Shown here one piece after another: positions 447 through 23,847 of a stretch of DNA of 25,218 nt. Below the pieces are notes generated by a model, which saw nothing but the letters and a program-made list of their open reading frames with translations, did not search any database and was not told the origin of the DNA. The DNA is from a virus. The DNA is taken from the IMG/VR virus record IMGVR_UViG_3300045953_000017, positions 1 through 25,218 of that record. One strand, given 5' to 3'. Position numbers and translations under genes: made by a program. The first letter of the stretch is position 1. Every line of letters starts with the position of its first letter.

Positions 447-449
447 CAG

Positions 450-455
450 AGGAGG
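450..455 (+). promoter_or_regulatory. Ribosome binding site AGGAGG for the gene at 462
   Basis: A perfect AGGAGG lies 6 bases before a GTG codon. It supports GTG 462 as the true start of the following gene although the codon is not ATG. Confidence 0.75.
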
Positions 456-461
456 CCGATC

Positions 462-899: not shown

Positions 900-926
900 A
901 CGTGGCGCGGCGGGTACGCATCACCC

Positions 927-932
927 GGAGGA
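927..932 (+). promoter_or_regulatory. Ribosome binding site GGAGGA deciding the start at 938
   Basis: GGAGGA lies 5 bases before ATG 938. The same frame is open back to a GTG at 902, but that GTG has no such motif and would add a 12-residue Arg-rich leader. The shorter start is preferred. Confidence 0.65.
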
Positions 933-937
933 CACCG

Positions 938-3130
938 ATGGCGAAAGATACCAAGCGACCCACCATGCCGACGGGCGTGCAAGCGGTGGCGCTCGACAGC
1001 ACACGGGTCAACGTGAGCTGGCTGGCCTCGACGGATCCGGTGGTGCCGGGTCGACCGACCTCCGGGGTCAAGGGCTACCGGGTGTTTCGCAATGGCGTCC
1101 TCGCGGTCGAATTGCCGAATCCGGCGTTGATCTGGTGCGACACCGGGCGCACGCCGGGCGAGAGTTACGACTACAGCGTGGCGGCCGTCGATAACGCGGG
1201 CAACCAGTCGTACCCATCGAAGCACTACTCCGTGACGATGCCGACCACCGACACGCCCGTGCCCGACGGGCCGGACACCACAGCACCGACCGTGCCGCAG
1301 AACCTCTCCGCCGTGACGCAGGGTGAGGATCAGATCAACCTGACCTGGTCGGCGTCGAGTGATCCGCTGGTGGCGGGGCAAGAGCAGAGCGGCGTCGTCG
1401 GCTACAAGGTGTTTCGCGACGGTGCGCAAGTGGCGACCGTGGCGCTCGTGCCGTCGTACCAGGACACCGGGCTCGTTGCGGAGACCGAATACAGCTACAC
1501 CGTCTCTGCGGTGGACTTCGCGGGCAATGAAAGCGCCCAGAGCGCGGCGGCGCTCGCCACGACGACCGGTGCAGGCTTGGCACCCGATACCACTGCGCCC
1601 ACGGTGCCGACGAATCTGCAGGCGACCGCGCAATCGAGCTCGAGCATCAATCTCACCTGGGGCGCCTCCACCGACCCGAGCGTCGGCGGTCAGCAGCAGA
1701 GCGGGCTCGCGGGCTACCAGGTGCGTCGTGACGGCTTGCTGGTGGCCTCACCGGGGCTGGTGACAACGTACCAGGACACCGGCCTCGCCGCCTCGACGCA
1801 GTACACCTACACGGTGGCCGCGCGCGATGCCGCCAACAACGTGAGCGCACAGAGCGCGAGCGCACAGGCGACCACCCAGGCCGCCGCGCCGAGCACTGCC
1901 TTCAAGTGCGTGCGCCAGGGCGCCACCGGCAGCGCCAACGGCAACGACTGGACCAATGCTTACGTCGCGCTCCCTTCGGCACTGACGCGCGGCACCACGT
2001 ACTACGTGGCCGACGGGACCTACAGCGGTTATACCTTCGATGACGCGGCGAGCGGCACGCAGGTGATCACGATCAAGAAAGCTACCGCCGCGGATCACGG
2101 CACAGAGACCGGGTGGAGCGCTGGCTACGGCGACGGGCAAGCGGTGTTCGGGGGGTGTTCATTCCTCACCGATTACTACGTGATCGACGGGCAAGCGCGC
2201 GATGCGACCTGGTGGTTAGGCTCGGTGAGCGGCTACGGCATCCGCTTCCAGGGCAACGGCGGCAAAGTACTGCGGCTCGATAACACGAGCGGCAGCGGCG
2301 GGGATAACTTGACTCTGCGCTATTGCGACCTGGTCGGCGCCGGCCGCGACACGGGTCACGGCGATGATGTGGTCTACAGCCTCGCCAATAATCACAATGT
2401 GACCTTCCAATACTGCGCGCTGCGGGACTCCGACCGCACGATCTTCATTACGGCCGGCGGCATGACCGACTGGCTGGTCGATCACTGCTACATCGCGCGC
2501 AATTGCTCCACGCCCGCCGTGCATTCCGAGATGATCTCCTCCTGGGGCAGCGCGACCGGGATCACCTTCTCGCACAACATCATCGAGGACATTGAGGGTA
2601 CGGCGATCTGGGCCTTCATCAACGATGGCAACGCCAGCAACTGGAAAATTTACGGCAACGTGATCTTTCACTCAGCCAGCTTCAACCGCGAGGGCATCAC
2701 CGGCTCAATCTTCTGCGCCAATGATGCGAGTAATAACAATTTCCTCAGCAACCTGAAATACTTTAATAACACGCACCACAACCTCAAGGGCTTATGGAGC
2801 GGTGTCGTGATCCAGGGCACGACCAGCAACAACGAGGTCCGTAATAATCTCTGGTACAGCTGCTGCCGTACCAACTCGACCGCAAGCAGCGCGCACAGCC
2901 ACAACCTGTACTACAACACGGTGCAGGACGGCGACTCCACGCCGACCAAGGTGGTGCTCTCGGCGGGCGAGAGTGACATCTTCGTATCGGCCTCCGGCAA
3001 AAACTTCCGCCTCAAGGTCGCCACCGCTGCTGGGCAAAGCCTGGCCTCGCCGTACAACGTCGACCTGGACGGCACGACGCGCGGCGGGGATGGAACGTGG
3101 GATCGGGGCGCCTACGAGTTCACGGGTTAA
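938..3130 (+). CDS. Three fibronectin-III domains fused to a parallel beta-helix; fibre or adhesin protein
   Basis: 730 residues from ATG 938. Three tandem FN3-like domains occupy about residues 8-110, 114-217 and 218-320. Each has a Pro-x-Asn-Leu (or equivalent) opening strand, a Val-x-Trp or Leu-Thr-Trp strand, Gly-Tyr-x-Val, and a Tyr-x-Tyr-x-Val-x-Ala-x-Asp strand followed by Asn. Domains 2 and 3 both start Thr-Ala-Pro-Thr-Val-Pro. Residues about 320-730 have spaced Asn and short hydrophobic strands (for example Asn-Asn-His-Asn-Val-Thr-Phe), typical of a right-handed parallel beta-helix as found in phage tailspikes and pectate-lyase-like proteins. Role: surface binding or polysaccharide recognition or cleavage; no catalytic residues can be assigned. 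Its place before the neck genes is unusual for a tail fibre and would fit a head fibre. Confidence 0.75.
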   Translation: MAKDTKRPTMPTGVQAVALDSTRVNVSWLASTDPVVPGRPTSGVKGYRVFRNGVLAVELPNPALIWCDTGRTPGESYDYSVAAVDNAGNQSYPSKHYSVTMPTTDTPVPDGPDTTAPTVPQNLSAVTQGEDQINLTWSASSDPLVAGQEQSGVVGYKVFRDGAQVATVALVPSYQDTGLVAETEYSYTVSAVDFAGNESAQSAAALATTTGAGLAPDTTAPTVPTNLQATAQSSSSINLTWGASTDPSVGGQQQSGLAGYQVRRDGLLVASPGLVTTYQDTGLAASTQYTYTVAARDAANNVSAQSASAQATTQAAAPSTAFKCVRQGATGSANGNDWTNAYVALPSALTRGTTYYVADGTYSGYTFDDAASGTQVITIKKATAADHGTETGWSAGYGDGQAVFGGCSFLTDYYVIDGQARDATWWLGSVSGYGIRFQGNGGKVLRLDNTSGSGGDNLTLRYCDLVGAGRDTGHGDDVVYSLANNHNVTFQYCALRDSDRTIFITAGGMTDWLVDHCYIARNCSTPAVHSEMISSWGSATGITFSHNIIEDIEGTAIWAFINDGNASNWKIYGNVIFHSASFNREGITGSIFCANDASNNNFLSNLKYFNNTHHNLKGLWSGVVIQGTTSNNEVRNNLWYSCCRTNSTASSAHSHNLYYNTVQDGDSTPTKVVLSAGESDIFVSASGKNFRLKVATAAGQSLASPYNVDLDGTTRGGDGTWDRGAYEFTG

Positions 3131-3140
3131 GGATCACCTC

Positions 3141-3578
3141 ATGGCCATTTACAGCATCGCCGGCCGCTCGACGGTTGTCGGCACAACTGCGCGGGCGATT
3201 GCTTCCGTTTTTGCGACCGCGAGCGTCGGCTTTCGGCTGCTCGAAGTGCACGTTTTCAATACCACCACGACTGCAACCGCCGTGGCACTCGCACGTTTCA
3301 CGGCCGCGACCAACGTCGGCACAGGGTTGACCGAGGCGGAGTACGACGAGGTGCTGCCGCCACCGCTCTGTACCGGATTCGCCGGGCACACGGGCGACGG
3401 CACGACCGGGCAGATTATCTGCCAGGCGTCGCTCGGCGCGGCGATCGGTTCGGGCGTGATGTGGACCTTTCGCGAGGGGATTGCCGTGCAGATCGGCACC
3501 GCCAACGGCATCGGGGTGATCGGGGTGAGCGGCGTCACCGGGCAAATCCTCGACTACACGTACGTCTGGTACGAGTGA
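3141..3578 (+). CDS. Small beta-rich phage structural protein, hypothetical
   Basis: 145 residues from ATG 3141, ten bases after the previous stop, following a short GGATC-containing spacer. The frame is open further upstream, but only inside the beta-helix gene. The sequence has alternating strands: Ser-Thr-Val-Val-Gly, Gly-Phe-Arg-Leu-Leu-Glu-Val-His-Val-Phe-Asn near residue 30, and a closing Tyr-Thr-Tyr-Val-Trp-Tyr-Glu strand. This resembles small phage virion proteins that form jelly-roll or sandwich trimers. I do not recognise a named family. It sits in the run of adhesin-like genes and probably belongs to the same particle structure. Confidence 0.65.
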   Translation: MAIYSIAGRSTVVGTTARAIASVFATASVGFRLLEVHVFNTTTTATAVALARFTAATNVGTGLTEAEYDEVLPPPLCTGFAGHTGDGTTGQIICQASLGAAIGSGVMWTFREGIAVQIGTANGIGVIGVSGVTGQILDYTYVWYE

Positions 3579-3584
3579 TGTGAT

Positions 3585-4304
3585 GTGGCGATTACCCGCC
3601 CCACCGGTGGCACTGCGACCGGTGTTGCCAATACGACGAGTCTATCGATCACTCTCGGGACGACGGCGGCGGACGATGTCATTGTCGTCGAATATGTGCA
3701 CCGCGGCACGGCGGCGGGCACGCTCGGCGGCACTTCGATTTCGACCGGCGGGCTGACCTGGACGGAGAAGCACAGCCAGTTATTCGCCACCAGCACTTTT
3801 TCGGGTCGTACGCTCTGGACGCGGGCAACCGCTGATCACAACGGTCAAACTCTCACAATCTCAGGGCTGACGGATTCCTGCGCAGCCATCTATGCCGTCT
3901 GGCGCGGTGCTCTCGCCACGGGCGATCCGCTCACCGCTGCGACCATCGTCGGAGAGCAGAACACCTCGGGGAATGAACTCTCGGGCCAGATCACGACCAA
4001 TGTGCCCGGTGCAGTGGTGGTGTTCATCGTGGCGAACTCGCCTGACCTGGCCGTTACGTCTCAGAGTGCAGCGACACTCGGAGCGCTCGCCGCCGGCAAC
4101 GAGCACCTGAACACGGGCGGCACGGATGCGTCGGTGGCGAGTGCGTGGAAGGAGTCGGCGTCGGCGGCGGCGACCGGGCAATTCAGTTGGTCGCAGACCA
4201 ATGCGGCGAGTGGCTCGTGGGCATATGCAATCGCGCCTGCGACGACGATTGATCTGCCGATTCTGGTGATGGCACCGATCCAGCGGCCCGTGCGCTGGCC
4301 ATGA
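3585..4304 (+). CDS. Beta-sandwich phage virion protein, hypothetical
   Basis: 239 residues, starting at GTG 3585 just after the previous stop and ending in an ATGA overlap with the next gene. It opens with Arg-Pro-Thr-Gly-Gly-Thr and strands with Ser-Leu-Ser-Ile-Thr-Leu, then Asp-Asp-Val-Ile-Val-Val-Glu-Tyr-Val near residue 35, Gly-Leu-Thr-Trp-Thr near 60 and Gly-Ala-Val-Val-Val-Phe-Ile-Val near 145. This strand pattern is widespread in phage structural proteins annotated as hypothetical. The C-terminus is a Pro/Arg-rich tail. No enzymatic motif is seen. Virion location is inferred from context. Confidence 0.6.
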   Translation: MAITRPTGGTATGVANTTSLSITLGTTAADDVIVVEYVHRGTAAGTLGGTSISTGGLTWTEKHSQLFATSTFSGRTLWTRATADHNGQTLTISGLTDSCAAIYAVWRGALATGDPLTAATIVGEQNTSGNELSGQITTNVPGAVVVFIVANSPDLAVTSQSAATLGALAAGNEHLNTGGTDASVASAWKESASAAATGQFSWSQTNAASGSWAYAIAPATTIDLPILVMAPIQRPVRWP

Positions 4305-5695
4305 GTAATCACGTCCGCTGGAACTCGCAGCCGTGGCGGCCGCCGACTGAGCGGCGGGTCTCGCAGTTCATCCTCGGGCTGACCCCCGACGAGTCGGTCA
4401 CCCTGACCGGGACCGGTGGCTCACTGGTCCTGACGGGCGGGACCGCCAGCTTTGCGCTCGGGCTGGCGGCGGTCGGAGCGGCGCTGCTGTTGACGGGCGG
4501 CACCGCGACGCTGACCGCGACCGCCAATGTGCGGTTGGTGGCGACGGGTGGCAGCCTGGTGCTGTCGGGGGGCACCGCCACCCTGACGGCGACCAATCAC
4601 GTCACGCTGCCGGCCACCGGTGGCTCGCTGGTCCTGTCGGGCAGTGCCGCCACGTTGACGGCCACGCAGCATGTAATTCTCGATGCGTCGAGTGGCAGCC
4701 TCCTGCTCAGCGGCGCGGGTGCCACGTTAGACACGGCGGGAAATGTCTCGCTGGCGGGCACTGGGGGCGCTCTCACGCTCTCAGGGGCATCCGCGCCGTT
4801 CGACCAGGGATTGACGGCGGGCTCGGGGACGCTCGTCCTGAGCGGCTCTGTAGCGTCGCTGGATACGTCCGCTTTCGTCATCCTCGGTGCGATTGGTGGG
4901 GCGCTCACCCTCACGGGCGCGTCGGCGACGCTCGATCAGGGATTGACGGCGGCGGGCGGTAGCCTGCTGCTCTCCGGCGGGTCGGCGGGACTGGATCTCA
5001 CGCTGCCGGCGGGTTCGGGCGCGCTGCTCCTAACGGCCGGCGAGGCGACGCTCGCATACACCGCGAACGTCAGCCTGCCGGCCGACGGTGGGTCGCTGCT
5101 GCTCTCGGGCGGTGGGGCGACGCTCGAGGTAGCAGGCAACGTCGTCTTAGTCGGCGAGGGCGGGGCGTTACTGCTCACGGGCAGCGCCGCACCGTTAGAC
5201 CAAGGATTGAGCGCGGGCGGTGGCAGCCTGCTCTTGAGCGGCGGCTCTGCGACTTTTGCGCAGACCTTCCACTCGACGCTCGACGTCTTTGGCCGCCTCC
5301 TGTTTTTGACAGGAGGGGTGGCGACGCTCACGGCGTCGCAGCACTACACGCTCGCGGCCGATGCCGGCGCGCTCCTGCTAAGTGGCGCAGACGCCGCGCT
5401 GCAATCGACCGCGGGCACGAGTCTCAGTGCCACGGGTGGGGCACTGCTCCTCTCGGGCGCCGAGGCCGAGCTGCTCACGACTGGCCCGGTCACGCTCGAC
5501 GCGACCGGCGGCACGCTGCTCCTGTCGGGCGGCACGGCCAGCTTCGAGATCGCTGCACCGCCGGTCATTCAGATTGGCGCGGGACCGGGGCCGGAACCGC
5601 CCAAGCGACCTTCGTTCGCCCGGCGGCGGATCGAGCATCAGGATTTCTTAGATATCGCAATCATCATTGTGGAAATCATCAATGCCGGACGTTAA
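4301..5695 (+). CDS. 17-unit short-repeat structural protein
   Basis: 464 residues, start coupled to the previous gene by ATGA. After a basic and aromatic leader (residues 1-32), residues 33 to about 420 are 17 imperfect units of 20-25 residues. The core is Gly-Gly-Ser-Leu-Leu-Leu-Ser-Gly-Gly-x-Ala-x-Leu, a pattern suggesting one beta-hairpin per unit and a solenoid or stacked trimeric rod. The end has a Pro-rich linker, an Arg-rich patch and a hydrophobic helix with Ile-Ile-Ile-Val-Glu-Ile-Ile that could anchor it or form a trimer. Similar short repeats occur in other phage proteins annotated as hypothetical. Fibre or decoration role is inferred. Confidence 0.75.
   Translation: MSNHVRWNSQPWRPPTERRVSQFILGLTPDESVTLTGTGGSLVLTGGTASFALGLAAVGAALLLTGGTATLTATANVRLVATGGSLVLSGGTATLTATNHVTLPATGGSLVLSGSAATLTATQHVILDASSGSLLLSGAGATLDTAGNVSLAGTGGALTLSGASAPFDQGLTAGSGTLVLSGSVASLDTSAFVILGAIGGALTLTGASATLDQGLTAAGGSLLLSGGSAGLDLTLPAGSGALLLTAGEATLAYTANVSLPADGGSLLLSGGGATLEVAGNVVLVGEGGALLLTGSAAPLDQGLSAGGGSLLLSGGSATFAQTFHSTLDVFGRLLFLTGGVATLTASQHYTLAADAGALLLSGADAALQSTAGTSLSATGGALLLSGAEAELLTTGPVTLDATGGTLLLSGGTASFEIAAPPVIQIGAGPGPEPPKRPSFARRRIEHQDFLDIAIIIVEIINAGR
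4397..5562 (+). repeat. 17 degenerate tandem coding repeats (60-75 bp)
   Basis: Each unit encodes a variant of Thr-Gly-Gly-Ser-Leu-Leu-Leu-Ser-Gly-Gly-Ala-Thr-Leu. Three units (6, 8 and 12) end in Asp-Gln-Gly and are followed by a shorter Leu-Thr-Ala or Leu-Ser-Ala unit, hinting at higher-order duplication in two-unit blocks. DNA identity is reduced at wobble positions, so the array looks old rather than freshly expanded. Confidence 0.75.
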
Positions 5696-6533
5696 TGCAC
5701 TCGGCGAGCGGATCGTGGGGACGGTGCGCAGCTTCGTCGCGCGCTCGATCGCGCCGATCGAAGCACGGCTCGCGGCACTTGAGCAGGCGAAACCGGCACC
5801 GTCGCTTGAGGAAGTGAAGGATGCACTCTCGCCCCTGGTTGCCGAATGGACGGAGGATCACGTCCAGATATTCCGGCGAGCCTCGGATGAAGCCTTCAAG
5901 GACTGCATCCGGGAATATCTCGCCAAAGTACCGACGCCGAAGGATGGCAAGGACGGCAAAGACGGGAAGGACGGGACCAGTGTCTCCGTAGCCGACATCG
6001 AGACGGCGCTGCACAAGATGCTGGACCTTCGGTTCGCTGAGTACGTGCTCGAGCACGAGCGGCGGTTGCCCGAGCTCATGCAGCGGATGATCGACGCGCT
6101 CGAAAAACCCAAAGACGGCCGCGACGGTCGCGATGGGAAGGACGGCAAAGACGGCGAGGACGGGGCTGACGGGTTCGATCTGCGGCATTTCAGCGTCACG
6201 CAAGTCGACGAGCGCAGCTTCGTGCTGCGGTTCAAGGATCTGCGCCGAGAGATCGCTGAGAAGATCACCTTGCCCGTGCCGATCCCGCGGGCGATCTGGA
6301 AAGACGGCGAGACCTACCGAAAAGGGGACATCGTGACCTGGGGCGGCTCGGCCTTCATCAAGCAGACCGACGAGGACGGCGGCAAGCCGGAGGAGTCGAC
6401 GCACTGGCGGCTCTTCGTCAAGCGCGGCCGGGACGGGAAAGACGGGGCCAAGGGTGAAAAGGGCGATCCCGGCAAAGTGGGTCGCAACGGTCGCGACCTC
6501 ACGCAGCTCGGCCAAGACGGGAGCCGCTGGTGA
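5682..6533 (+). CDS. Collagen-like phage structural protein with CBM-like C-terminal module
   Basis: 283 residues from ATG 5682, overlapping the previous gene by 14 bases; a TTG at 5667 is a weaker alternative. Residues 1-80 are helical. Three Gly-x-y tracts dominated by Lys-Asp-Gly and Arg-Asp-Gly lie at about residues 85-98, 143-165 and 249-271, separated by helical segments; such tracts form collagen-like triple helices in phage fibres. Residues about 203-247 (Trp-Lys-Asp-Gly-x-x-Tyr-x-x-Gly-Asp-Ile-Val, then Trp-Arg-Leu) resemble the small aromatic carbohydrate-binding fold of CBM5/12 type. Predicted role: trimeric virion fibre with glycan contact. Confidence 0.8.
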   Translation: MPDVNALGERIVGTVRSFVARSIAPIEARLAALEQAKPAPSLEEVKDALSPLVAEWTEDHVQIFRRASDEAFKDCIREYLAKVPTPKDGKDGKDGKDGTSVSVADIETALHKMLDLRFAEYVLEHERRLPELMQRMIDALEKPKDGRDGRDGKDGKDGEDGADGFDLRHFSVTQVDERSFVLRFKDLRREIAEKITLPVPIPRAIWKDGETYRKGDIVTWGGSAFIKQTDEDGGKPEESTHWRLFVKRGRDGKDGAKGEKGDPGKVGRNGRDLTQLGQDGSRW

Positions 6534-6955
6534 TCGCGCTCGTCACGCTCGCGCAGGCGAGAGCTCATCTATCGATGGATCACACGGCCGACGACACGTA
6601 CATCCAAGGCTTGATCTACGCGGCGAGCCAGGCCGTGCTCAATTACGTCGGCGAGGAAGGATCGCTCGGGTGGTCGGACACCTCGGGCGCGTTTCCTGAC
6701 AGTTCCTCAAGCGACAGTTCCGGCTCGCTCGGCAACGTGCCGGAGGATGTGCGCTTCGCCACGTTGCTTCTGATCGGGGACTTCTATGCGAATCGGGAAC
6801 CCACGCCGACGGATCCGGTCGATCCGCAGTTTGGGTATGCCTATCTCCCTCGGGCGGTCGTCGCGCTCCTCTGGCCGTACCGGCTGCCCGGTCTCGGTGT
6901 CCCGGAAGAGAGCGAAGAAGCAGCGGGCGACAGCTCCAGTTCGTCTTCGTCGTGA
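6530..6955 (+). CDS. Head-tail connector protein, HK97 gp6-like
   Basis: 141 residues, GTG start coupled to the previous stop by GTGA. Residues 4-45 show the hallmark of the gp6-like connector family (Phage_connect_1): Leu-Ala-Gln-Ala-Arg-Ala-His-Leu, then an acidic Asp-Asp-Thr-Tyr-Ile and a helix with Tyr-Ala-Ala-Ser-Gln. In this family the protein forms a ring below the portal that completes the head. Residues 75-120 give the second helical part (Phe-Ala-Thr-Leu-Leu-Leu-Ile-Gly-Asp-Phe-Tyr). Unusual are two serine tracts, residues 58-66 and 135-141; the second ends the protein. They are probably flexible loops. Confidence 0.85.
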   Translation: MIALVTLAQARAHLSMDHTADDTYIQGLIYAASQAVLNYVGEEGSLGWSDTSGAFPDSSSSDSSGSLGNVPEDVRFATLLLIGDFYANREPTPTDPVDPQFGYAYLPRAVVALLWPYRLPGLGVPEESEEAAGDSSSSSSS

Positions 6956-6956
6956 C

Positions 6957-7655
6957 ATGCCGCAGCCGTGGAGCGTGCCTCGCGATTGGACCGGTGAGAT
7001 GGTTGCGGTATTGGCGGCAGGGCCGTCGATGTCGCGCGAAGTGTGCGAGCGGCTGCGTGGGCGCTGTCGCACGATTGCCGTTAACAACGTGGCGATCGAC
7101 ACGGTCGACAGCACGACGGGTCAGATGATGCCGGCGCTCGCGCCGTGGGCCGATGTGCTTTTTGCGTCCGATGCCAAGTGGTGGCGCACCTACCACGAGC
7201 GGGCATTGAAGTTTGAGGGCCTGAAGATCGGCACGCTGGCCGGCGCAAGCGTGGACAGTATCAAGCGCGTCGCCTTCTCGGGCAACGCGCCGTTTGACGA
7301 GCGACCCGACCGAGTGGTGAGCGGCGGCAACTCGGGCTACCAGGCCGTGCATATCGCGGCGCACTTTGGGGCGGCTCGGATTCTGCTCTTTGGGTTCGAC
7401 ATGCGGGAAGTCAATAAGCGCCGGCACTACTTCGGCAACCACCCGGCACCGTGCAACTCGCAGGGGCGTTTCGGTGTCTGGATTACCAACTTTGAGCGGC
7501 TCGCGAAGGCGCTCGAGCAGCGGGGAGTCGCGGTGGTGAACTGCACGCCGGGCAGCGCGCTGCGCGGCTTGAAGGTGTCGACGCTCGAGGCTGAATTTCC
7601 GGTGCAGGAGGTCCAGTGGCAGGATTCAAAGCAGGCCGCTTGCGCCACCGCGTAA
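6957..7655 (+). CDS. MptE/DUF115-like protein, copy 1
   Basis: 232 residues, ATG two bases after the connector stop. Motifs: Val-Leu-Ala-Ala-Gly-Pro-Ser at 18-24 (nucleotide-binding-like loop), Ile-Ala-Val-Asn-Asn at 40-44, Ala-Pro-Trp-Ala-Asp-Val-Leu at 62-68, Gly-Gly-Asn-Ser-Gly-Tyr-Gln-Ala near 123-130, Phe-Gly-Phe-Asp-Met at 145-149 and Val-Val-Asn-Cys-Thr at 193-197. This pattern fits phage proteins annotated as DUF115 or 6-hydroxymethylpterin diphosphokinase MptE-like, which are related by fold to some glycosyl- and sialyltransferases; the substrate is unknown. It overlaps the joining protein by 40 bases. A diverged paralogue lies at 17561-18349. Confidence 0.75.
   Translation: MPQPWSVPRDWTGEMVAVLAAGPSMSREVCERLRGRCRTIAVNNVAIDTVDSTTGQMMPALAPWADVLFASDAKWWRTYHERALKFEGLKIGTLAGASVDSIKRVAFSGNAPFDERPDRVVSGGNSGYQAVHIAAHFGAARILLFGFDMREVNKRRHYFGNHPAPCNSQGRFGVWITNFERLAKALEQRGVAVVNCTPGSALRGLKVSTLEAEFPVQEVQWQDSKQAACATA
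7606..7611 (+). promoter_or_regulatory. Ribosome binding site AGGAGG for the head-tail joining gene
   Basis: AGGAGG inside the end of the MptE-like gene lies 4 bases before GTG 7616. It fixes the start of the joining gene despite the 40-base overlap. Confidence 0.7.
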
Positions 7656-7999
7656 CGATCCAGGACCCGATCGAGGGGCAAGATGCCGACTCAGGTGCGG
7701 TGTTGATTATTGCCTGGGATGACACGTTCTCGGATGTGCCGGCCGACGTGGACGCGCTCTCGGGACGCGAGTACCTCGCCGCCGCACAGATTCAATCTGA
7801 GGAGACCCATGTCATCACGCTCCGATGGCGGCCGGGGCTGCACGCGAAACAGCGGATTGTATGGGCGCCGTCGGGCGATGAGATCAAATACTTCAACATC
7901 GTGGCCCCCATCGCGGGCGGCTATGGAATGCGGGAATTCATCGAGATCCGCTGCTCGGAAGGGCTCAACGATGGCGGCCGTGACACCTATGCCGGATGA
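7616..7999 (+). CDS. Head-tail joining (adaptor) protein
   Basis: 127 residues from GTG 7616, preceded by AGGAGG. It opens Ala-Gly-x-Leu-Arg-His-Arg-Val-Thr-Ile-Gln at about residues 6-17, followed by a Trp-Asp-Asp strand, the Val-Asp-Ala-Leu-Ser-Gly-Arg-Glu segment near 43-51, and a Thr-His-Val-Ile-Thr-Leu-Arg-Trp strand. These are typical of the phage head-tail joining family (Phage_H_T_join; SPP1 gp16-like). In that family the protein forms the ring between connector and tail. Length matches the usual 100-130 residues. Confidence 0.88.
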   Translation: MAGFKAGRLRHRVTIQDPIEGQDADSGAVLIIAWDDTFSDVPADVDALSGREYLAAAQIQSEETHVITLRWRPGLHAKQRIVWAPSGDEIKYFNIVAPIAGGYGMREFIEIRCSEGLNDGGRDTYAG

Positions 8000-8588
8000 C
8001 GGCACCCAGCCGAGTTCGCTCAGCTATCGCAAGGCGCGGGCGGCGATCTGGGAAGGGAAGGTTCCGGCGAAGTATCACCGGCTGCTGCCCTTCATCGGCG
8101 GCGGGCGAGTGCTCGAAATCGGCGCCGCCGAAGGCGTGCTCGCGCTGCTCTTGTCGCGCGAAAGTCGCGTCGACATGGTGACGGCGCTGGAACTGCGCGA
8201 CTACCGGCATCTCGAGGCGCAACGGCTGCAGCGGGCGTGGGCCGAGCAGGGGTTTGATGTGAGTCGCTGTCTCATGTTGCAGGGCGACATCCGCGAGCGC
8301 CTGGACCTGCTGCAGACCGTTGAGACGCTGGTGGCGGTGCGGGCGATCTATTACCTGCGCGAGGAAGCACGCGGCGTCATTGCGGCGGCGCATCGCTTCG
8401 TGCCGCGGGTGGTGCTCTGCGGCAATCGCAACCGGGCGGCGCAGTACCGCCAGCATCCGCGCAGCGAACTCGGCCGCTTCAATTTTCTTGCATCCATCGA
8501 TGGTATGCAGTGGCTGTTGAAAAAAGCCGGCTATCACATCGCCACCGTCGTCGCAGAGGGCGACCCGATCGTGGTGGGCGTGCAATGA
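7971..8588 (+). CDS. Class I SAM-dependent methyltransferase
   Basis: 205 residues from ATG 7971, preceded by GGAAGGG and overlapping the joining gene by 29 bases; ATG 7989 is an in-frame alternative. Residues 47-58 hold motif I (Val-Leu-Glu-Ile-Gly-Ala-Ala-Glu-Gly), followed by an acidic strand end at Glu74 and Gly-Asp-Ile near 105-107, as in Rossmann-fold methyltransferases. The middle Gly of motif I is replaced by Ala. There is no target-recognition domain or DNA-methylase Asn/Asp-Pro-Pro-Tyr motif, so a glycan, protein or small-molecule substrate is more likely than DNA. First gene of a block of four ending at 11403. Confidence 0.75.
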   Translation: MAAVTPMPDDGTQPSSLSYRKARAAIWEGKVPAKYHRLLPFIGGGRVLEIGAAEGVLALLLSRESRVDMVTALELRDYRHLEAQRLQRAWAEQGFDVSRCLMLQGDIRERLDLLQTVETLVAVRAIYYLREEARGVIAAAHRFVPRVVLCGNRNRAAQYRQHPRSELGRFNFLASIDGMQWLLKKAGYHIATVVAEGDPIVVGVQ

Positions 8589-9964
8589 CCGATGCGCTGC
8601 GGGTCTCGCCGCAGGATGTCACGCACAAGCTCTCGGCCGACCTTGATAAGACCGAAGCGCAGGCGTGGATCGATAAGACCTATATGCCCATTGCGGAGAC
8701 GATCAAGCATCGCTCGATCGTGGCGCGCTACGTCGAGGGGCAGCGGTGGGAGGATACGGAACTCTTCACCCGCATCTATCGGCGGCGCTTTGAGGAAGGC
8801 CAGGAGGTGCGCGGCTGCGAAACGTACGAGGGGCTGCTCACGCAGTACTACACCCGCGTCGATCACATGTTCGCCGACATGCGCCGCTACGGCTATCGCG
8901 AGGACGCGGATGATCTGATTCCCGTGGTGATTTCGCCGGACGGGAATCTCGTGATCGGCAACCAGGGCAATCACCGGCTCGCGATGGCGCAGGTGCTCAA
9001 GGTCCCGACGGTGGCAGTGAAGGTGAAAGGCCGCATGCATACGCCTATTGCCTGCCCGGTGGAGTCGGTGAAGTTCCCGCCAGAGCTGCATCCGGGGGCG
9101 GAAGAAATCCCGGCGATGACGACGCCCGCGGAGCGCAGAGCGTACTACCAACTGGCGAAGGACCAGGCGCCGCTCGGAGCGGTGATCGAACTCGGCACCT
9201 GGCTCGGGGCGGCGACGATCTACATCGCGGCGGGGGTGCGCGATGCGGGCGTGGCGGGTCCGATGCATTCCTACGATCGCTTCAGGTGGCTGTCGATCCA
9301 CGAGTACAAGGCGGGGCATCCGCTCAACTGCGACATGATGACGCAGGTGCAGCGCAATCTCGGGCCGCTCGTTGAGCTCGTGAAGCTCCACAAGGGCGAG
9401 ATCAAGGCGGCGAAGTGGACCGGCAAGCCGATTGGGCTGCTGGTCGCCGACGGTCCGAAGCGATGCGATGAAGTGGCGCGCACGCTCGCGATCTTTGGTC
9501 CCTCGCTCGTGGTTGGAAGTTGCACGGCCTGGCAGGACTTCGCCTACTTCCCGGCGTATGACTTGCCGGTCTGTTTTGAGCTGCTCGAGCGGGCTGGGTG
9601 CCTTTCCTTCGTGCGCGGGGTATTCCCGGGGACCACAGGGATCTTTCGCGTGGAACGCGCGATCCGGCGCGAGGATGTGCGGCGGCTCGAGCTCGCGCAG
9701 ATCGACACGGCGCAGATTCTGCCGACCTGGCAGAAGTGGCGCGACCGGCTGCCCGATGAGATGCGCCCGCGCTTCATGTGCGGCGCGGCGATGTTTCTCC
9801 ACGACCGGGGCGCGCAGCCGCAGGCTGTGGCGCTCTTCAAGTCGCTGCTCGCCGAGCATCGCGAGGACATCGCGGCCAAGTGGCAGTATTTGAAGGAAAA
9901 GCGGCCGGTCATGGCGGCTAAGTACCGGGACTTCGTAAAGGCGGTCGATCACGCCCATGCATGA
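8585..9964 (+). CDS. ParB-like domain fused to a class I methyltransferase
   Basis: 459 residues, start coupled by ATGA to the previous gene; the frame extends upstream, but only as an Arg-rich read-through. Residues 105-150 have the ParB/sulfiredoxin-like signature: a Pro-Asp-Gly-Asn hairpin, then Gly-Asn-His-Arg-Leu-Ala at 128-133. Such domains appear in proteins of surface polysaccharide clusters. Residues about 185-350 are a methyltransferase of the Methyltransf_24/TylF kind: Val-Ile-Glu-Leu-Gly-Thr-Trp-Leu-Gly at 200-208, Asp231 and a Val-Ala-Asp-Gly strand at 287-290. Residues 400-459 are helical, TPR-like in look. Substrate unknown; glycan or natural-product-type methylation is a guess. 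Confidence 0.65.
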   Translation: MTDALRVSPQDVTHKLSADLDKTEAQAWIDKTYMPIAETIKHRSIVARYVEGQRWEDTELFTRIYRRRFEEGQEVRGCETYEGLLTQYYTRVDHMFADMRRYGYREDADDLIPVVISPDGNLVIGNQGNHRLAMAQVLKVPTVAVKVKGRMHTPIACPVESVKFPPELHPGAEEIPAMTTPAERRAYYQLAKDQAPLGAVIELGTWLGAATIYIAAGVRDAGVAGPMHSYDRFRWLSIHEYKAGHPLNCDMMTQVQRNLGPLVELVKLHKGEIKAAKWTGKPIGLLVADGPKRCDEVARTLAIFGPSLVVGSCTAWQDFAYFPAYDLPVCFELLERAGCLSFVRGVFPGTTGIFRVERAIRREDVRRLELAQIDTAQILPTWQKWRDRLPDEMRPRFMCGAAMFLHDRGAQPQAVALFKSLLAEHREDIAAKWQYLKEKRPVMAAKYRDFVKAVDHAHA

Positions 9965-10700
9965 CCGGCTGACGAGCGAGGAGCTCGCCGCACTGCCCGA
10001 GAAAGCGAAGCGCGATCCGGCGGTGGTCGATCTCTATCGCGAGAACGATTATCTGACGGCGTATGCGCTCCATACCGATCGCCGGGTGCTGAAGGAAGGG
10101 CACGAGCCGGCGGCCGGCGCGGATGCGAGCCGGGACAATTGGGATCGGCACGGCGAGCTGCAGCGCGATTTCCTCATTCACGCGGGATTGAAGCCGGAGC
10201 ACTGGCTGCTGGATCTGGGCTGCGGCGCAGGAAGGCTCGCCCGCAAAATCGTGCCGTATTTGGAGATTGGACACTATCACGGTGTAGACATATCGGCCGC
10301 TTCACTCGAAGCCGCACATAAGCTAGCCCGAACGGAGGGCTGGCTTGAACGTGCGCCGTTGTTCTGGATCGATCACGTACCGCCTGTGGCGGAGTCATAC
10401 GATTTCATCTGGGCGCACTCAGTCGTCCCGCACCTGCCACCACCGCTCATTGCCGAGCTAATGGTCGAGGCCGCGCGGCTACTCAAGCTCGGGGGCGTCT
10501 TCTATTGGACCTACGTTCCCTCGAAGACGACGGCGCGCTACGGGCTCACGCAGTTTCGCACCGCACTCGACGTGTACCAGGCATGCACCGCGCAGGCCGG
10601 GCTCACCTTTGCCGAGGTGCCCGATTGGGTACGGGCGGCGGGATACGTGCCGGGGCGGTGGAGTTACGGGCAGAGCCTCGCGGTAAGCCGGCATGTCTAA
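9957..10700 (+). CDS. Class I SAM-dependent methyltransferase
   Basis: 247 residues, overlapping the preceding gene by 8 bases. Canonical motif I is Leu-Leu-Asp-Leu-Gly-Cys-Gly-Ala-Gly at 84-92, motif II acidic residue Asp111 in Gly-Val-Asp-Ile-Ser, motif IV Tyr-Asp-Phe-Ile-Trp-Ala-His at 148-154, and a Leu-Leu-Lys-Leu-Gly-Gly-Val-Phe strand at 175-182. This is the Methyltransf_11/25 pattern, with all expected SAM-binding elements intact. The N-terminal 75 residues are a helical extension. Third methyltransferase in a row; the substrate cannot be told from sequence. Confidence 0.85.
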   Translation: MHDRLTSEELAALPEKAKRDPAVVDLYRENDYLTAYALHTDRRVLKEGHEPAAGADASRDNWDRHGELQRDFLIHAGLKPEHWLLDLGCGAGRLARKIVPYLEIGHYHGVDISAASLEAAHKLARTEGWLERAPLFWIDHVPPVAESYDFIWAHSVVPHLPPPLIAELMVEAARLLKLGGVFYWTYVPSKTTARYGLTQFRTALDVYQACTAQAGLTFAEVPDWVRAAGYVPGRWSYGQSLAVSRHV

Positions 10701-11403
10701 GCTCACGGTCGTCTGCTGGAAGTGGCAGGCGGCACCGGGATATCGCTCGACCTTTACCTCGACGCACGTGAACACGCTGCGGGCGATGGTGGCGCGGCAC
10801 TACGCGAAGCCGCACGACTTCGTGTGTCTCACTGACGACGCGAAGGGCATCGACGGGGATATTCGCGTCGTCCCCTTGTGGAACGATTACCACGAGCTCC
10901 GCGGGCCGAATGGTGTCAATTGCTATCGGCGCTTGCGTGCTTTTTCAGCCGAGGCGGCCGACATCATCGGCCCGCGGTTTGTCTCGCTTGACCTCGACTG
11001 TGTGATCACGGCGGACGTGGCGCCGCTCTGGGATCGGCCTGAGGACTTCGTGATCTGGGGCGATACCGCGCGGGGGACGCCCTACAACGGCAGCATGTTT
11101 CTGTTAACGGCTGGCGCGCGGCGGAAAGTGTGGGAGCAATTCAATCCGCACCACTCTCCGGCGCTGGCGCGGAACTTGGGCTACATCGGCAGCGACCAGG
11201 CGTGGATCGGTGCGTGCCTCGGGCCGCACGAGCGTAAGTGGACGAAGGTGGACGGGGTGTATTCGTTTCGCAATGAAATTCAAAAGCGACCGCTCGCGGG
11301 CCTGCCGGGCAACGCACGCATCGTGATGTTTCACGGACGCTTCGATCCGTGGATGCCGGCGGTGCAGGCGTGGCACCCGTGGATTAAGCAGCACTACCAC
11401 TAA
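10693..11403 (+). CDS. GT-A fold glycosyltransferase, putative
   Basis: 236 residues, overlapping the upstream gene by 8 bases and meeting the next gene at TAATG. The N-terminus has Leu-Thr-Val-Val-Cys-Trp-Lys-Trp, then Phe-Val-Cys-Leu-Thr-Asp-Asp near 43-49 as in the nucleotide-sugar region of GT-A enzymes. Residues 97-103 (Val-Ser-Leu-Asp-Leu-Asp-Cys) contain the DxD metal motif at Asp100-Asp102. The Pro-Tyr-Asn-Gly-Ser-Met-Phe segment at 130-136 and Gly-Ser-Asp-Gln-Ala-Trp further on match the acceptor and base region of such enzymes. Likely sugar transfer to a protein, glycan or lipid; donor unknown. Confidence 0.7.
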   Translation: MSKLTVVCWKWQAAPGYRSTFTSTHVNTLRAMVARHYAKPHDFVCLTDDAKGIDGDIRVVPLWNDYHELRGPNGVNCYRRLRAFSAEAADIIGPRFVSLDLDCVITADVAPLWDRPEDFVIWGDTARGTPYNGSMFLLTAGARRKVWEQFNPHHSPALARNLGYIGSDQAWIGACLGPHERKWTKVDGVYSFRNEIQKRPLAGLPGNARIVMFHGRFDPWMPAVQAWHPWIKQHYH

Positions 11404-11897
11404 TGGCAGAGTTTTCCATCACTGGCGTCGACACGTTGGTCGACCGGCTGTCTGCGCTCCCGAAAAAGTTACAGCGGAAAGCGGCGAAGGTCGCTACCCG
11501 CCGCGCCGCTGCATTAATCCGCGACGAGGCACGGCGTTTAGCCAAGCGCCTCGACATCGACGATCCGGTATTCAAGCGGACCATCTGGAAAAACATTCGC
11601 GTCCAGGAGGCTACGCGCTCGAGCAAGCGCGTCGGCGGGGTCGTCATGCGGGTCGGCGTGGCCGGCGGGGCGCAGCTCGGCAAGAAGCTGAAGCAACGGC
11701 AGGCCGAATCCTCGGACCTCCCCGGCAAGGCGACGCAGCACTGGCGGATGCTCGAGTTCGGTAGCGAGAACACCCGCGCGCAGCCCTTCATGCGACCGGC
11801 GATGGAATCGAAAGCCAATGCCGCGATCGAGAAGCTCGCAATGGAACTCTCGGCGGCGATTGATCGTCTGGCGGTCTCTGGACCTGGAGCCGAGTAA
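11403..11897 (+). CDS. HK97 gp10-like tail completion/neck protein
   Basis: 164 residues, ATG overlapping the previous TAA by one base (TAATG). The start Phe-Ser-Ile-Thr-Gly-Val-Asp-Thr-Leu, a Lys/Arg-rich helix at residues 18-50 (Lys-Lys-Leu-Gln-Arg-Lys-Ala), the Val-Gly-Val-Ala-Gly strand and the closing Phe-Gly-Ser-Glu-x-x-x-Ala-Gln-Pro-Phe-Met-Arg-Pro-Ala at 118-132 are the signature of the HK97 gp10 family. Members act at the head-tail junction. Its normal neighbour, the joining protein, is 3.4 kb upstream because the enzyme cassette lies between them. Confidence 0.88.
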   Translation: MAEFSITGVDTLVDRLSALPKKLQRKAAKVATRRAAALIRDEARRLAKRLDIDDPVFKRTIWKNIRVQEATRSSKRVGGVVMRVGVAGGAQLGKKLKQRQAESSDLPGKATQHWRMLEFGSENTRAQPFMRPAMESKANAAIEKLAMELSAAIDRLAVSGPGAE

Positions 11898-12272
11898 ATG
11901 TATCCGCCCCTTTATGCGACCTGCGCCGCCGACTCCGGGGTGCAGGCGGTGCTCACAGACACCTCCGGCTTACTGCGCCTGTATCCCTTTGGCGAGGCGC
12001 CGCAGCAGCACGAGCGGCCCTATGCGGTGTGGCAGACGGTGTACGGCGAGCCCTACAACTCGCTGTCCTGCCCGCCGGATGTGGACCAGTTTGGGGTACA
12101 GATTGACGTCTACGGGCCGACGGCGGACTCGGTGCGAACCGTCGCCGCCGCACTGCGCGCGGCCATCGAGCCGCATGCCTACATCGTCCGTTTCAACGGC
12201 GAGACGCGCGAATCTGCCACGCGCGCGTATCGCTATTCCTTCGATGTGGAGTGGCAGATCTATCGAGCATGA
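11898..12272 (+). CDS. Tail terminator-like protein (DUF3168)
   Basis: 124 residues, starting directly after the previous stop. Pattern: Pro-Tyr-Ala-Val-Trp-Gln-Thr-Val near residues 41-48, Val-Asp-Gln-Phe-Gly-Val-Gln-Ile-Asp-Val-Tyr near 62-72, then a helix with Ala-Ala-Leu-Arg-Ala-Ala-Ile and a closing strand Tyr-Ser-Phe-Asp-Val-Glu-Trp-Gln-Ile. This is the DUF3168 fold, whose members (SPP1 gp17-like) form the ring ending the tail tube. Size and position (gp10-like, DUF3168, tail tube) fit the usual siphophage order. Confidence 0.88.
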   Translation: MYPPLYATCAADSGVQAVLTDTSGLLRLYPFGEAPQQHERPYAVWQTVYGEPYNSLSCPPDVDQFGVQIDVYGPTADSVRTVAAALRAAIEPHAYIVRFNGETRESATRAYRYSFDVEWQIYRA

Positions 12273-12294
12273 CGAGAACGTTAGGAGTAATTAA

Positions 12295-12771
12295 ATGGCT
12301 AAGCTGACCCAGGGCACACAACTCTATTTCCTTGATCCCGAAACTGATGCAGTGACATTGGTCGAATGCCCGACCGGCATTACGGGCCTCGGTGGCACAC
12401 GCGATCAGGTTGACATCACCTGTCTAGACTCGTTGGAAGCGGAGTCGCTGCCGGGCCTTGCGCGGCCTGGAGAGGTGTCGGTTCAAATCCAGTTTGATCA
12501 AGACAACACCTCGCACGTGCGGCTTTTTGAGCTGTTTCAGGACACCTCGCAAGAAAATATCTGGTGGGCGATCGGCGGATCTGACGGTCGGGACATTCCG
12601 CCGACATCGGGAGACAGCACCGGCTGGGTAGTGCCGCTTACCAGAACGTATTGGCTTTTCGAGGGATACATCTCGAACATGCCCGTAGACTGGCCGCTCG
12701 GCGGAGTCCAGGGCGGAACCATGACGATCCAGCGTTCCGGCCGTGCGACGCTGAGCCGGAAGACTGCCTGA
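12295..12771 (+). CDS. Major tail (tube) protein
   Basis: 158 residues from ATG 12295, with AGGAG at 12283-12287. It starts Gly-Thr-Gln-Leu-Tyr-Phe, has Thr-Gly-Ile-Thr-Gly-Leu-Gly-Gly-Thr-Arg-Asp-Gln-Val-Asp-Ile-Thr-Cys-Leu near residues 27-45, then Pro-Gly-Glu-Val-Ser-Val-Gln-Ile-Gln-Phe and a C-terminal Met-Thr-Ile-Gln-Arg-Ser-Gly strand. This is the beta-barrel pattern of siphophage tail-tube proteins related to lambda gpV. It lies between the terminator and the G-type chaperone, as expected. Its good ribosome site and intergenic start suit a highly made protein. Confidence 0.88.
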   Translation: MAKLTQGTQLYFLDPETDAVTLVECPTGITGLGGTRDQVDITCLDSLEAESLPGLARPGEVSVQIQFDQDNTSHVRLFELFQDTSQENIWWAIGGSDGRDIPPTSGDSTGWVVPLTRTYWLFEGYISNMPVDWPLGGVQGGTMTIQRSGRATLSRKTA

Positions 12772-13253: not shown

Positions 13254-13564
13254 GCGAAGCCGAGGCGCAGCAGTGGGCGCGCTACATCGAGGCCTTTGGT
13301 CCGCTCGATTGGGGCGAGCGGATCTTCGCGCGCCTCGATTCCGGCTTCGCTTTATTGGCGGCGCTCATCATCAATCGCTCGGGCGGTATTCGTCATTCTC
13401 CCGATCCGCGAATCCCCGGCACGCCGGCCGAGCCGCGCGAGTTCATGTGGCAACCGCCGCCGGAGCCAGAAGCCACGCCGGAATTCTTAACCGAACTCTT
13501 CGGCCTGAAGGCAGTTAAACGTGGCAAGAAATCTCGGCACGCTGACCGTCGATCTCGTCCTTAA
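12792..13564 (+). CDS. Tail assembly chaperone G-T fusion by -1 ribosomal frameshift
   Basis: Reading frame zero to 13169, slipping one base back and continuing from 13169 to the TAA at 13562-13564 gives 257 residues (126 + 131). The T part reads Phe-Gly-Ala-Asp-Ala-Trp-Phe, then Ile-Ala-Glu-Ala-Arg-Glu-Cys-Leu, Trp-Ala-Arg-Tyr-Ile-Glu-Ala-Phe-Gly-Pro-Leu and Leu-Ala-Ala-Leu-Ile-Ile-Asn-Arg, matching lambda gpT-like minor tail proteins. The T frame has a TAA at 13145-13147 and no ATG, GTG or TTG before about 13355, so it can be expressed whole only by frameshift. Its end overlaps the tape-measure start by 44 bases. Confidence 0.85.
13163..13169 (+). promoter_or_regulatory. -1 frameshift slippery heptamer A AAA AAT
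   Basis: In the frame of the G gene the codons are GCA AAA AAT. Slipping back one base lets both tRNAs re-pair on AAA AAA, fitting the X XXY YYZ rule. The GC-rich bases that follow could fold and stimulate the shift, but I cannot compute a structure. The run of six A is exceptional in this GC-rich region. Confidence 0.85.
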
Positions 13565-16412: not shown

Positions 16413-17564
16413 ATGCTCTGGCCGTTCTGCCCGCTCACTCCGATGACCGAGGGCGTGGAGTTCGTCACGGATGTGATGCGGGCTTTCTCGGAAGAGCAGC
16501 GGGTGCGGCTGCGGGCCGTAGCGCGCCGACGGTTCGAGGCGAGCTACGTTTTTGATGCTCGCGAATATGAGCGGGCGCGGCTCTCGATGCGTGGCACGCT
16601 GCCCGGCCCGTTTGACGTCCCCGACTGGACCGACGTGCGGCGCACGGTGGCGGCGGCCACCGACAACTCGCTCAGCTTCGACAATAACAATCCACAGTTC
16701 ACCGCCGCGATGGATCTGATCATTCTGCAGGACAGCGAGACGTACGAGGTGCTGTCGGTGAGCGGCTCGACCTCAGGCGGGCTCACGCTCTCAGTCCCGC
16801 TCGTGAACGATTATCCGAATGGGCGGGTGCTGCGACTGCTCGAATGCGATGCGCCAGGCGGCTTTACCGCCGAGCATCCGGCAGGACCGTACCGCTCGGC
16901 CGATGTCGAATGGGTCTGCTACGACGACGATCTGCCGACGGCCGACGAGAGCCAGTTTGGCACGTATCGCACTGAGCCCTTGCTCGATGATTGCCCGCTC
17001 GTGGGCGACGACGCACTGCCGGAGTCGGTGCAGCGGCTCTACCAGACGGTGGATAACTTCATCGCGCGGCCGTTTGTCGACAGCGCGCGAGGACAGCCGA
17101 GCGAGGTGCTCGGGCTCGCCTGGCAGCCCGCGAGCCGTGCCGAGCGGTGGTCGCTGCGCCGACATCTACTGGCACTGCGGGGCCGACAGCGGGCTTTTTG
17201 GCTTCCTTCGTTCAATACCGGCGGCCTTGAACTGGCGGCGACGGCGACGGCGGGCGCGGGCTCGATCACCATCCGCGAGGTGAATCTCGGCATCGGCTAT
17301 CCCGACGGCGAGCTCGACATCTATCTCCTCACCACGAGCGGCACGGTGATCACCCGCCAGGTGACCGCGATCACGCCGGGCGTCGGCACGGAGGTATTGA
17401 CGATCACGCCGACGTGGCCCACGACTGTCACGCCGGCCGCCGTGCATCGCTTTCACATCCTCACCCGCATGAGGCTCGCGCAGGACCGCGTGGAATGGCT
17501 GCACCGGGCGGCGTCGGGTCCGAAGGTCGTCGTGGCGGCGCACGAGGCGCCGCTGCCGGCATGA
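16413..17564 (+). CDS. Minor tail protein, distal-tail position
   Basis: 383 residues, ATG immediately after the tape-measure stop; ends in an ATGA overlap with the next gene. The N-terminus is Leu-Trp-Pro-Phe-Cys-Pro-Leu-x-Pro-Met, then a helix Arg-Arg-Arg-Phe-Glu-Ala-Ser-Tyr-Val-Phe near 38-47. Strand-rich sequence follows with Trp-Leu-Pro-Ser-Phe-Asn near 265-270 and a C-terminal beta domain (about 275-383). The place right after the tape measure is that of distal-tail or tail-tip proteins in siphophages and gene transfer agents. I recognise it as a phage tail protein by context and look, not by a named domain. Confidence 0.7.
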   Translation: MLWPFCPLTPMTEGVEFVTDVMRAFSEEQRVRLRAVARRRFEASYVFDAREYERARLSMRGTLPGPFDVPDWTDVRRTVAAATDNSLSFDNNNPQFTAAMDLIILQDSETYEVLSVSGSTSGGLTLSVPLVNDYPNGRVLRLLECDAPGGFTAEHPAGPYRSADVEWVCYDDDLPTADESQFGTYRTEPLLDDCPLVGDDALPESVQRLYQTVDNFIARPFVDSARGQPSEVLGLAWQPASRAERWSLRRHLLALRGRQRAFWLPSFNTGGLELAATATAGAGSITIREVNLGIGYPDGELDIYLLTTSGTVITRQVTAITPGVGTEVLTITPTWPTTVTPAAVHRFHILTRMRLAQDRVEWLHRAASGPKVVVAAHEAPLPA

Positions 17565-18349
17565 GCGTCGAGCTCACGGCCCGCCGCGCCTTCGCCGGGC
17601 GCGAAGGGCCGGTCGTCCGTGGTCAGCGGCTGACGGCCGAGGAACCCTATGCTCGGCAGTTGCTTCGCGCGGGCCTGGTGGCGCGCGGCCACGCGACCTT
17701 TCCACCCCGCCCGCCGCTCATCCTCGAATCCCGCGCCATCCCGCGAGCCTCGGGTCCTTGGGACGGTGCGACCGCCTTCGTCTTCGCGCCGGGGCCGTCG
17801 CTCACCCTGGACGATACGGCGCTCTGTCGAGGCCGTGGCAAGGCGATCGTGGTCAATGGCGCCTTCCCGTGGGCGCCGTGGGCGGATGTGCTCTATGCCG
17901 CCGACGATCGGTTCTGGCGGACCTATGCCGAGGACATCGAGGCCGGCTTCGCCGGGGAACGATGGAGCCTCAGCGCAACCGCCTGTCAGCGCTATGGGCT
18001 CAAGCTCGCGACGCGCGGCACGGGTGAGGGGTTTTGCCGGCGACCGTTCACGATCAATGGCGGCGGCAATTCCGGCTTTCAGGCCGTACACCTCGCCGCC
18101 ACCTTCGGCGCCGCGCGGATCGTGCTCTTAGGGTTCGACATGCAGCGCACCAATGGCCGCGAGCACTGCCACGGCCCGCACAAGGGAGGCTTGCCGAGCG
18201 GTAAGGGCTTTGCGAGCTGGATCGGCCGCTTCCGCTACCTGGCACGGGATCTGAAGGCGCTTGGGGTCGAGGTCGTCAACTGCACGCGCAGCACGGCATT
18301 GCACTGCTTCCCGGAGCGGCGGCTCGAGGATGTCTTAGATGGCCTATGA
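17561..18349 (+). CDS. MptE/DUF115-like protein, copy 2, with extra N-terminal domain
   Basis: 262 residues from ATG 17561. Residues 75-262 share with the 6957 protein a Gly-Pro-Ser loop (78-80), Ala-Pro-Trp-Ala-Asp-Val-Leu at 105-111, Phe-Trp-Arg-Thr-Tyr near 118-122, Gly-Gly-Asn-Ser-Gly-Phe-Gln-Ala-Val-His at 168-177, Gly-Phe-Asp-Met at 191-194 and Val-Val-Asn-Cys-Thr near the end. Residues 1-42 (Ala-Phe-Ala-Gly-Arg-Glu-Gly-Pro-Val-Val-Arg-Gly, then Pro-Tyr-Ala-Arg-Gln-Leu-Leu-Arg-Ala-Gly-Leu) resemble a small stand-alone phage domain, fused here. Role unknown; a glycosyltransferase-like or nucleotide-binding function is inferred from the family. It overlaps the next gene by 11 bases. Confidence 0.72.
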   Translation: MSVELTARRAFAGREGPVVRGQRLTAEEPYARQLLRAGLVARGHATFPPRPPLILESRAIPRASGPWDGATAFVFAPGPSLTLDDTALCRGRGKAIVVNGAFPWAPWADVLYAADDRFWRTYAEDIEAGFAGERWSLSATACQRYGLKLATRGTGEGFCRRPFTINGGGNSGFQAVHLAATFGAARIVLLGFDMQRTNGREHCHGPHKGGLPSGKGFASWIGRFRYLARDLKALGVEVVNCTRSTALHCFPERRLEDVLDGL

Positions 18350-23759: not shown

Positions 23760-23782
23760 GCGACTTAGCGAAGAGAGAACGT

Positions 23783-23831: not shown

Positions 23832-23847
23832 ACTTACGCGCGTTGGC

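Follow-up and report, generated by a model that had tools for sequence, protein, structure and literature searches.

What are enzymes of glycan synthesis and modification doing among the genes that connect the head of a phage to its tail? This question is raised by the window analysed here, a virus record of 25,218 bases (IMGVR_UViG_3300045953_000017) with a siphovirus late operon. A sequence-only reading of this DNA had proposed that an MptE-like gene separates the connector gene from the head closure (joining) gene, and that four further genes, for methyltransferases and a glycosyltransferase, separate the closure gene from the gp10-like neck gene. Pfam and PHROG profiles agree with these calls and their order between 6530 and 12272, and the enzyme genes do share the tight overlaps of the late operon, with successive overlaps of 40, 11, 4, 8, 8 and 1 nt from the first enzyme gene through to the neck gene. 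As described below, these genes form a cassette of glycan enzymes that is exchangeable and occupies a fixed place among the neck genes, a finding more general than that reading stated. On balance we favour the view that the cassette is a virion-decoration system docked in this cluster, with a putative activity, acceptor and donor.

Relative loci were collected by the tail-terminator family, a choice that makes no assumption about the cassette, annotated with profiles built for the purpose and grouped at 95% identity in the terminator gene. The check named beforehand was presence or absence at a fixed site, and this is the pattern found: among the 36 groups in which closure and neck genes are both visible, the connector-to-neck stretch is empty in 24 and occupied in 12. 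The closest relatives of the window (L046, L047 and L050) have terminators 59-62% identical to its own, with tail-tip genes 60-61% identical in L047 and L050. All three carry the connector, closure and neck genes contiguously, with gaps of 24-27 nt, confirming that these genes are normally adjacent, and no cassette protein is detectable in their contigs. Because its nearest relatives have this contiguous arrangement, the site is occupied in the window and genuinely empty in them. Glycan-type genes stand at the connector-closure junction in 5/35 groups and at the closure-neck junction in 8/36; the corresponding counts are 0/38 between neck and terminator, 0/35 between major tail and chaperone genes, and 3/41 between terminator and major tail genes. 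The terminator tree requires four changes in the state of the site, of which strongly supported branches force only one, and several gains or losses of the cassette are likely.

Where it is not empty, the site in relatives is filled with the same or other glycan enzymes. The set of the window (the methyltransferases MT1 and MT3, the two-part protein PARB_MT2 and the glycosyltransferase) recurs in L010, with the Maf-like gene on the other side of the closure gene, and in L004, where it is cut by the contig end; L009 and L014 carry the set with one methyltransferase replaced. The gene order is conserved in L004, L009 and L010, and the scattering without order that would have spoken against a cassette was not seen. 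MT1 is 51-69% identical across the cassettes of L004, L009, L010, L014 and L041. Among the other glycan enzymes at this site, some are GT8-like. Other loci have GT2, GT-D, methyltransferase and glycosyltransferase genes (L005, L006 and L081), FkbM, Methyltransf_24, GT2 and glycosyltransferase genes (L083), or further genes (L104 and L107), and a second phage group (L022-L033) has Maf-like, GT-D, Maf-like, GT2 and glycosyltransferase genes between the major capsid and connector genes. The GT2 and GT-D Pfam matches in these relatives exceed the curated cut-offs, so that the glycan reading has a footing that does not depend on the window. The closure-neck junction of L104 (8527-9279) and L107 holds a gene of the GDPD (glycerophosphodiester phosphodiesterase) family, assigned in L104, and a gene that by eye looks like ATP-grasp.

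Has the cassette been exchanged as a whole? Compared with L010, the window shows 51-72% identity in the cassette proteins and 32-44% in the neck and tail proteins, and this higher identity suggests that the cassette moved between lineages as a unit. Alternatively, the enzymes may just be slower to evolve than the small connector proteins. In the comparison with L005 the relation is reversed (glycosyltransferase 40%, terminator 51%). The G+C content and codon-position pattern of the cassette genes are the same as in their neighbours, with high G+C at the third codon position in each frame, so by composition the cassette is no recent foreign block. The genes are collected in Table 1.

Table 1. 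Genes of the cassette region, its borders and the tail-tip paralogue, with positions in the window.
Feature	Position	Strand	Profile evidence and remarks
Head-tail connector (Ad1, gp6-like), left border of cassette region	6530..6955	+	PF05135 1.6e-8; phrog_40 6e-23
Maf/GT42-fold ('MptE-like') putative glycosyltransferase 1	6957..7655	+	phrog_4603 'alpha-2,3-sialyltransferase' 1.2e-35; PF01973 E=1.3e-4, below cut-off
Head closure / joining protein Hc1	7616..7999	+	PF05521 1.4e-22
S-adenosylmethionine (SAM) methyltransferase MT1	7989..8588	+	Methyltransf_23 7e-6, just below cut-off; start = ATG at 7989
Two-part protein PARB_MT2: N-terminal GNHR-motif region + Methyltransf_24/TylF-type domain	8585..9964	+	Methyltransf_24 1.6e-5, at cut-off
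SAM methyltransferase MT3	9957..10700	+	Methyltransf_12 8e-15
Predicted GT-A / GT8-type glycosyltransferase	10693..11403	+	phrog_1962 5e-14; no Pfam match
gp10-like neck / tail completion protein, right border of cassette	11403..11897	+	PF04883 7e-7
Tail terminator	11898..12272	+	PF11367 1e-17
Predicted second Maf/GT42-fold paralogue, at junction of tail-tip genes 16413 and 18339	17561..18349	+	phrog_4603 2e-48

PDB sequence searches with single proteins and with profiles gave nothing firm, and the folds of the cassette proteins were resolved only by structure models. For the AlphaFold2 model of the 6957 protein (predicted local distance difference test, pLDDT, 88; 15 sequences in the input), the best aligned PDB chain after VIA re-alignment is the Magnetospirillum Maf glycosyltransferase 5mu5, with a Z of 15.9 over 183 residues. 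The next matches are the CstII and Cst-I sialyltransferases (Z of about 11.5) and the pterin pyrophosphokinase HPPK/MptE, and unrelated rows lie at about 5. The protein therefore models as a Maf/GT42-type transferase, a putative enzyme with the flagellin-glycosylating Maf as its best match. An MptE-type 6-hydroxymethylpterin pyrophosphokinase is not supported at the Pfam level, where the PF01973 scores are 22.2 and 20.2 bits against a cut-off of 34.6, and this fold match ranks behind Maf. Nine residues (G22, P23, N43, D72, S126, G127, D148, H157 and H162) are invariant in eight diverse Maf-like members, among them those of the window, of a Caulobacter phage, of a P1-type phage and of D3 and PAJU2, and are candidate catalytic residues.

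A second Maf-like gene, missed by the earlier reading, lies among the tail-tip genes and overlaps both of its neighbours. Its product is 44% identical to the 6957 protein, an identity by which we assign it to the same fold type. The junction is closed in L047, L049, L050 and L014, with the paralogue absent from it. A Maf-like gene also follows directly after the giant tail protein gene of Caulobacter phage CcrBL9 (L147, 5067-9556), followed in turn by five genes, including one for a methyltransferase, just before the endolysin.

The 10693 protein is predicted to have a GT-A/GT8 fold with a DxD metal motif and a C-terminal histidine. Its AlphaFold2 model (pLDDT 92) matches LgtC (Z 17.9), the Skp1 galactosyltransferase (17.5) and glycogenin (17.3), and the DxD (D100/D102), GSDQ and C-terminal HG..DPW motifs are conserved. 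The models thus bear out glycan-type folds for both 6957 and 10693. When this glycosyltransferase family is found in bacterial genomes, six of the seven matches are flanked by phage head, neck or tail genes. The 8585 protein had been called a ParB-like/methyltransferase fusion. Its methyltransferase half stands, with Methyltransf_24 in five of five family members, TylF in two and the domain at about residues 200-320; the ParB label has no support beyond a GNHR motif in the N-terminal region, invariant in the family, and five members gave no match to a Pfam ParB profile even at E=5. The family occurs at seven viral loci. No relatives of PARB_MT2, MT1 or MT3 were found in named phages at E 1e-5, and for PARB_MT2 this check covered 50,697 of them.

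What might such enzymes act upon? Of the glycan-decorating system that the sequence-only reading proposed for the late operon, the glycan-type enzymes, the operon and the fixed, optional site are all upheld, leaving aside the ParB label. The glycosyltransferase genes are embedded in the operon for virion structure, as expected of a virion-glycosylation system. A scan of 5600-12400 found no promoter-like sites, with 1.3 expected, which weakly supports one operon with a single transcript. We favour a virion protein over a host glycan as the target because of this location, the two Maf-type folds, the lack of membrane components and the published cases of virion glycosylation. The O-glycosylation of flagellin by Maf enzymes places acidic sugars on Ser/Thr, and N-acetylneuraminic acid (Neu5Ac) or 3-deoxy-D-manno-octulosonic acid (Kdo) can be used for it (PMC11339370). 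The Maf enzymes share the core Maf_flag10/PF01973 fold with the window proteins and are a known case of O-glycosylation of a self-assembling protein filament; the phage proteins differ from them in having no extra N- and C-terminal domains.

By analogy, the Maf-like enzyme would be translated together with the neck proteins and would attach to Ser/Thr residues of a virion protein an acidic host sugar (a nonulosonic acid or Kdo) activated with cytidine monophosphate (CMP). The O-glycan would be started in the cytoplasm on newly made virion subunits, before assembly, extended by the GT8-like enzyme with a further sugar from a nucleotide sugar, and capped by the three methyltransferases. The Maf paralogue on the tail side may act on another acceptor, located in the tail tip. 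Such a decoration would be dispensable for assembly and lineage-specific, and would probably alter how the particle appears to antibodies, predators or host surfaces. Freeman et al. 2023, as cited in PMC12619734 and PMC13313380, reportedly described virion glycosylation in mycobacteriophages and other actinobacteriophages. The systems of these phages resemble the window in having phage glycosyltransferase and methyltransferase genes that are presumed to decorate capsid or tail proteins. They differ in that the window has Maf/GT42- and GT8-type enzymes at the head-tail connector junction, is related to proteobacterial siphophages and carries an exchangeable cassette with empty-site relatives. 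PMC12619734 and PMC13313380 treat virion glycosylation as established for some actinobacteriophages and read glycosyltransferase plus methyltransferase genes there in this way.

Similar arrangements occur in the late regions of the Pseudomonas phages D3 and PAJU2. In D3 a Maf-like gene (orf7) lies between the capsid and adaptor genes, and a KilA-N gene, a phrog_6804 gene and a methyltransferase gene (orf11-13) lie between closure and the gp10-like gene. PAJU2 has the Maf-like ORF010, then two unannotated genes (ORF011-012) that the D3 record names as similar to D3 orf12 and orf13. Both phages are like the window in the Maf-like gene beside the adaptor and in the further genes between closure or adaptor and the gp10-like gene, one of which is a methyltransferase gene, assigned in D3 by its family match. 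They are unlike it in that no GT8-like gene was seen and that phrog_6804, with KilA-N in D3, replaces PARB_MT2 and MT3. We found no explanation of the function of these genes in searchable literature text. PHROG 6804, present in L088, D3 (L129) and PAJU2 (L146), lies at this junction beside a methyltransferase-type gene (family match in D3 and L088) and by eye resembles a GT-B heptosyltransferase-like protein.

The late cluster pmgO-pmgP-ppp-pmgQ of phage P1, with the family matches made in a P1-type phage, likewise combines a Maf-like protein (PmgO, phrog_4603), a second MptE-like protein (PmgP) and a phrog_1962 glycosyltransferase (PmgQ). P1, unlike the window, is a myovirus, with other neighbouring genes and no methyltransferases in the stretch examined. 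The genes pmgO, pmgP and pmgQ are reported to be non-essential (PMC10695390), as expected of decoration genes. Tetraselmis viridis virus S20 has Maf-like, GT-D, Maf-like, methyltransferase, GT2 and GT8-like genes; these differ in content and lie between the head genes and Hc1, upstream of Hc1 and not after it. Searches of the open literature brought up no previous account of Maf-like genes in this position, though this does not prove that there is none.

Several observations weigh against virion decoration. Plain Foldseek with the 6957 model gave no match below 1e-3 and ranked dehydratases and epimerases first, so that the Maf assignment rests on the VIA re-alignment and the clear gap to unrelated rows. 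Thiamin pyrophosphokinase and the pterin pyrophosphokinase MptE (Z 11.4) have the Maf/GT42 fold too. No genes for CMP-sugar synthesis were seen in the window. A collagen-like protein (5667-6533) found no support as the acceptor, as G-X-Y repeats show no significant link to occupied sites (3/9 against 2/20; Fisher p = 0.29). The enzyme activity, acceptor and sugar donor are all putative, drawn from the Maf analogy.

Among other explanations, the enzymes could modify a host surface glycan, lipopolysaccharide (LPS) or capsule, late in infection, for example against superinfection or against progeny re-adsorbing to debris. O-antigen-modifying enzymes are frequent in phages, the top match of the GT8 model, LgtC, is a lipooligosaccharide (LOS) galactosyltransferase, GT42 sialyltransferases also act on LOS, and some relatives have the GDPD-family gene within the insert. 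We nevertheless consider this explanation less likely. No cassette protein has a membrane segment (none above 1.5 on a 19-residue Kyte-Doolittle scale), giving no sign of a flippase or polymerase. This is unlike a Gtr-type serotype conversion cassette, with its membrane flippase and membrane glycosyltransferase, and no Gtr family matches the cassette proteins in Pfam or PHROG profiles. Moreover the genes overlap virion genes and are not separately expressed morons, and the second Maf-like gene lies among tail-tip genes.

An accidental assortment of moron genes in a permissive junction, with no common pathway, would account for contents that vary widely between lineages. It appears improbable when these contents are nearly all glycan-type enzymes, the order of MT1, PARB_MT2 and the glycosyltransferase is kept in L009, L010 and L014, the first two of these genes keep theirs in L004 and L041 as well, and several proteins travel together at an identity above that of the flanking genes. 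Rather improbable too is a reading in which the Maf/MptE-like proteins serve as pyrophosphokinases of small molecules, or as parts of the virion or neck, and the other enzymes are unrelated passengers. In its favour, ORF010 of PAJU2 bears the annotation 'structural protein', MptE/HPPK appears among the secondary fold matches, and a Maf-like gene stands alone at the connector-closure junction in L074, L075, L086, L092 and L098; yet this gene is absent from close relatives with an otherwise complete neck (L046-L051), is found time and again with methyltransferases and with genes of the GT2, GT-D and GT8 types, and has non-essential counterparts in P1 pmgO and pmgP. Hypermodification of phage DNA with glycosyl and methyl groups on its bases is highly improbable: virus-encoded glycosyltransferases acting on DNA are known (work cited in PMC12619734), but base-hydroxymethylation or replication genes are absent nearby, the position is late and head-tail, Maf/GT42 folds are no known DNA modifiers and the best fold matches act on sugars or proteins.

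The window has a further variable module, independent of the cassette, in a block of about 5.5 kb (93-5667) between the portal and the collagen-like gene. It holds a protein with FN3 and fibre-like regions (902-3130), a Gly/Ser/Thr-rich repeat protein (4301-5695) and others, and is absent in the empty-site L047 and L048 and partly present in L004, L092 and L098. This fibre-like block was rejected as an acceptor, being absent in several cassette carriers (L010 and L005). An open reading frame at 13355-13564 overlaps 13254-13520, between the tail assembly chaperone and tape measure genes, and is a possible frameshift product. At the right end of the window an integrase lies on the opposite strand (phrog_1 2.5e-45), and adjoining it is a frame (23731-24189, minus strand) with the stretch 'ARPERFELPTFWFV', of a type often found beside tRNA attachment sites; ARAGORN found no tRNA. 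A search for the tail-tip genes in sampled genomes, from the classes of the Bradyrhizobium and the Betaproteobacteria metagenome-assembled genome with the glycosyltransferase, gave at best 25-34% identity over most of the query, matches too distant for a host to be assigned.

Returning to virion decoration, a wider reading can be offered tentatively. Tailed phages of proteobacteria, D3 and PAJU2 among them, might quite generally use the connector/closure/neck junction as a docking place for Maf-based cassettes of glycosylation and methylation that they exchange with one another. The particles of each lineage would then bear a sugar coat peculiar to it. Such a system would be the phage counterpart of flagellin glycosylation islands, with separate Maf enzymes for head/neck and tail tip. 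Phage sugar coats are known mainly from actinobacteriophages and are relevant to antibody escape and phage therapy; if our inference holds, the cassette would be a variant of this already known phage-encoded virion glycosylation. The same gene families are found in the laboratory phages D3 and P1, where pmgO, pmgP and pmgQ are listed under 'putative morphogenetic function' without a role. If true, virion decoration would also explain the PHROG 4603 'sialyltransferase' genes in phage late operons.

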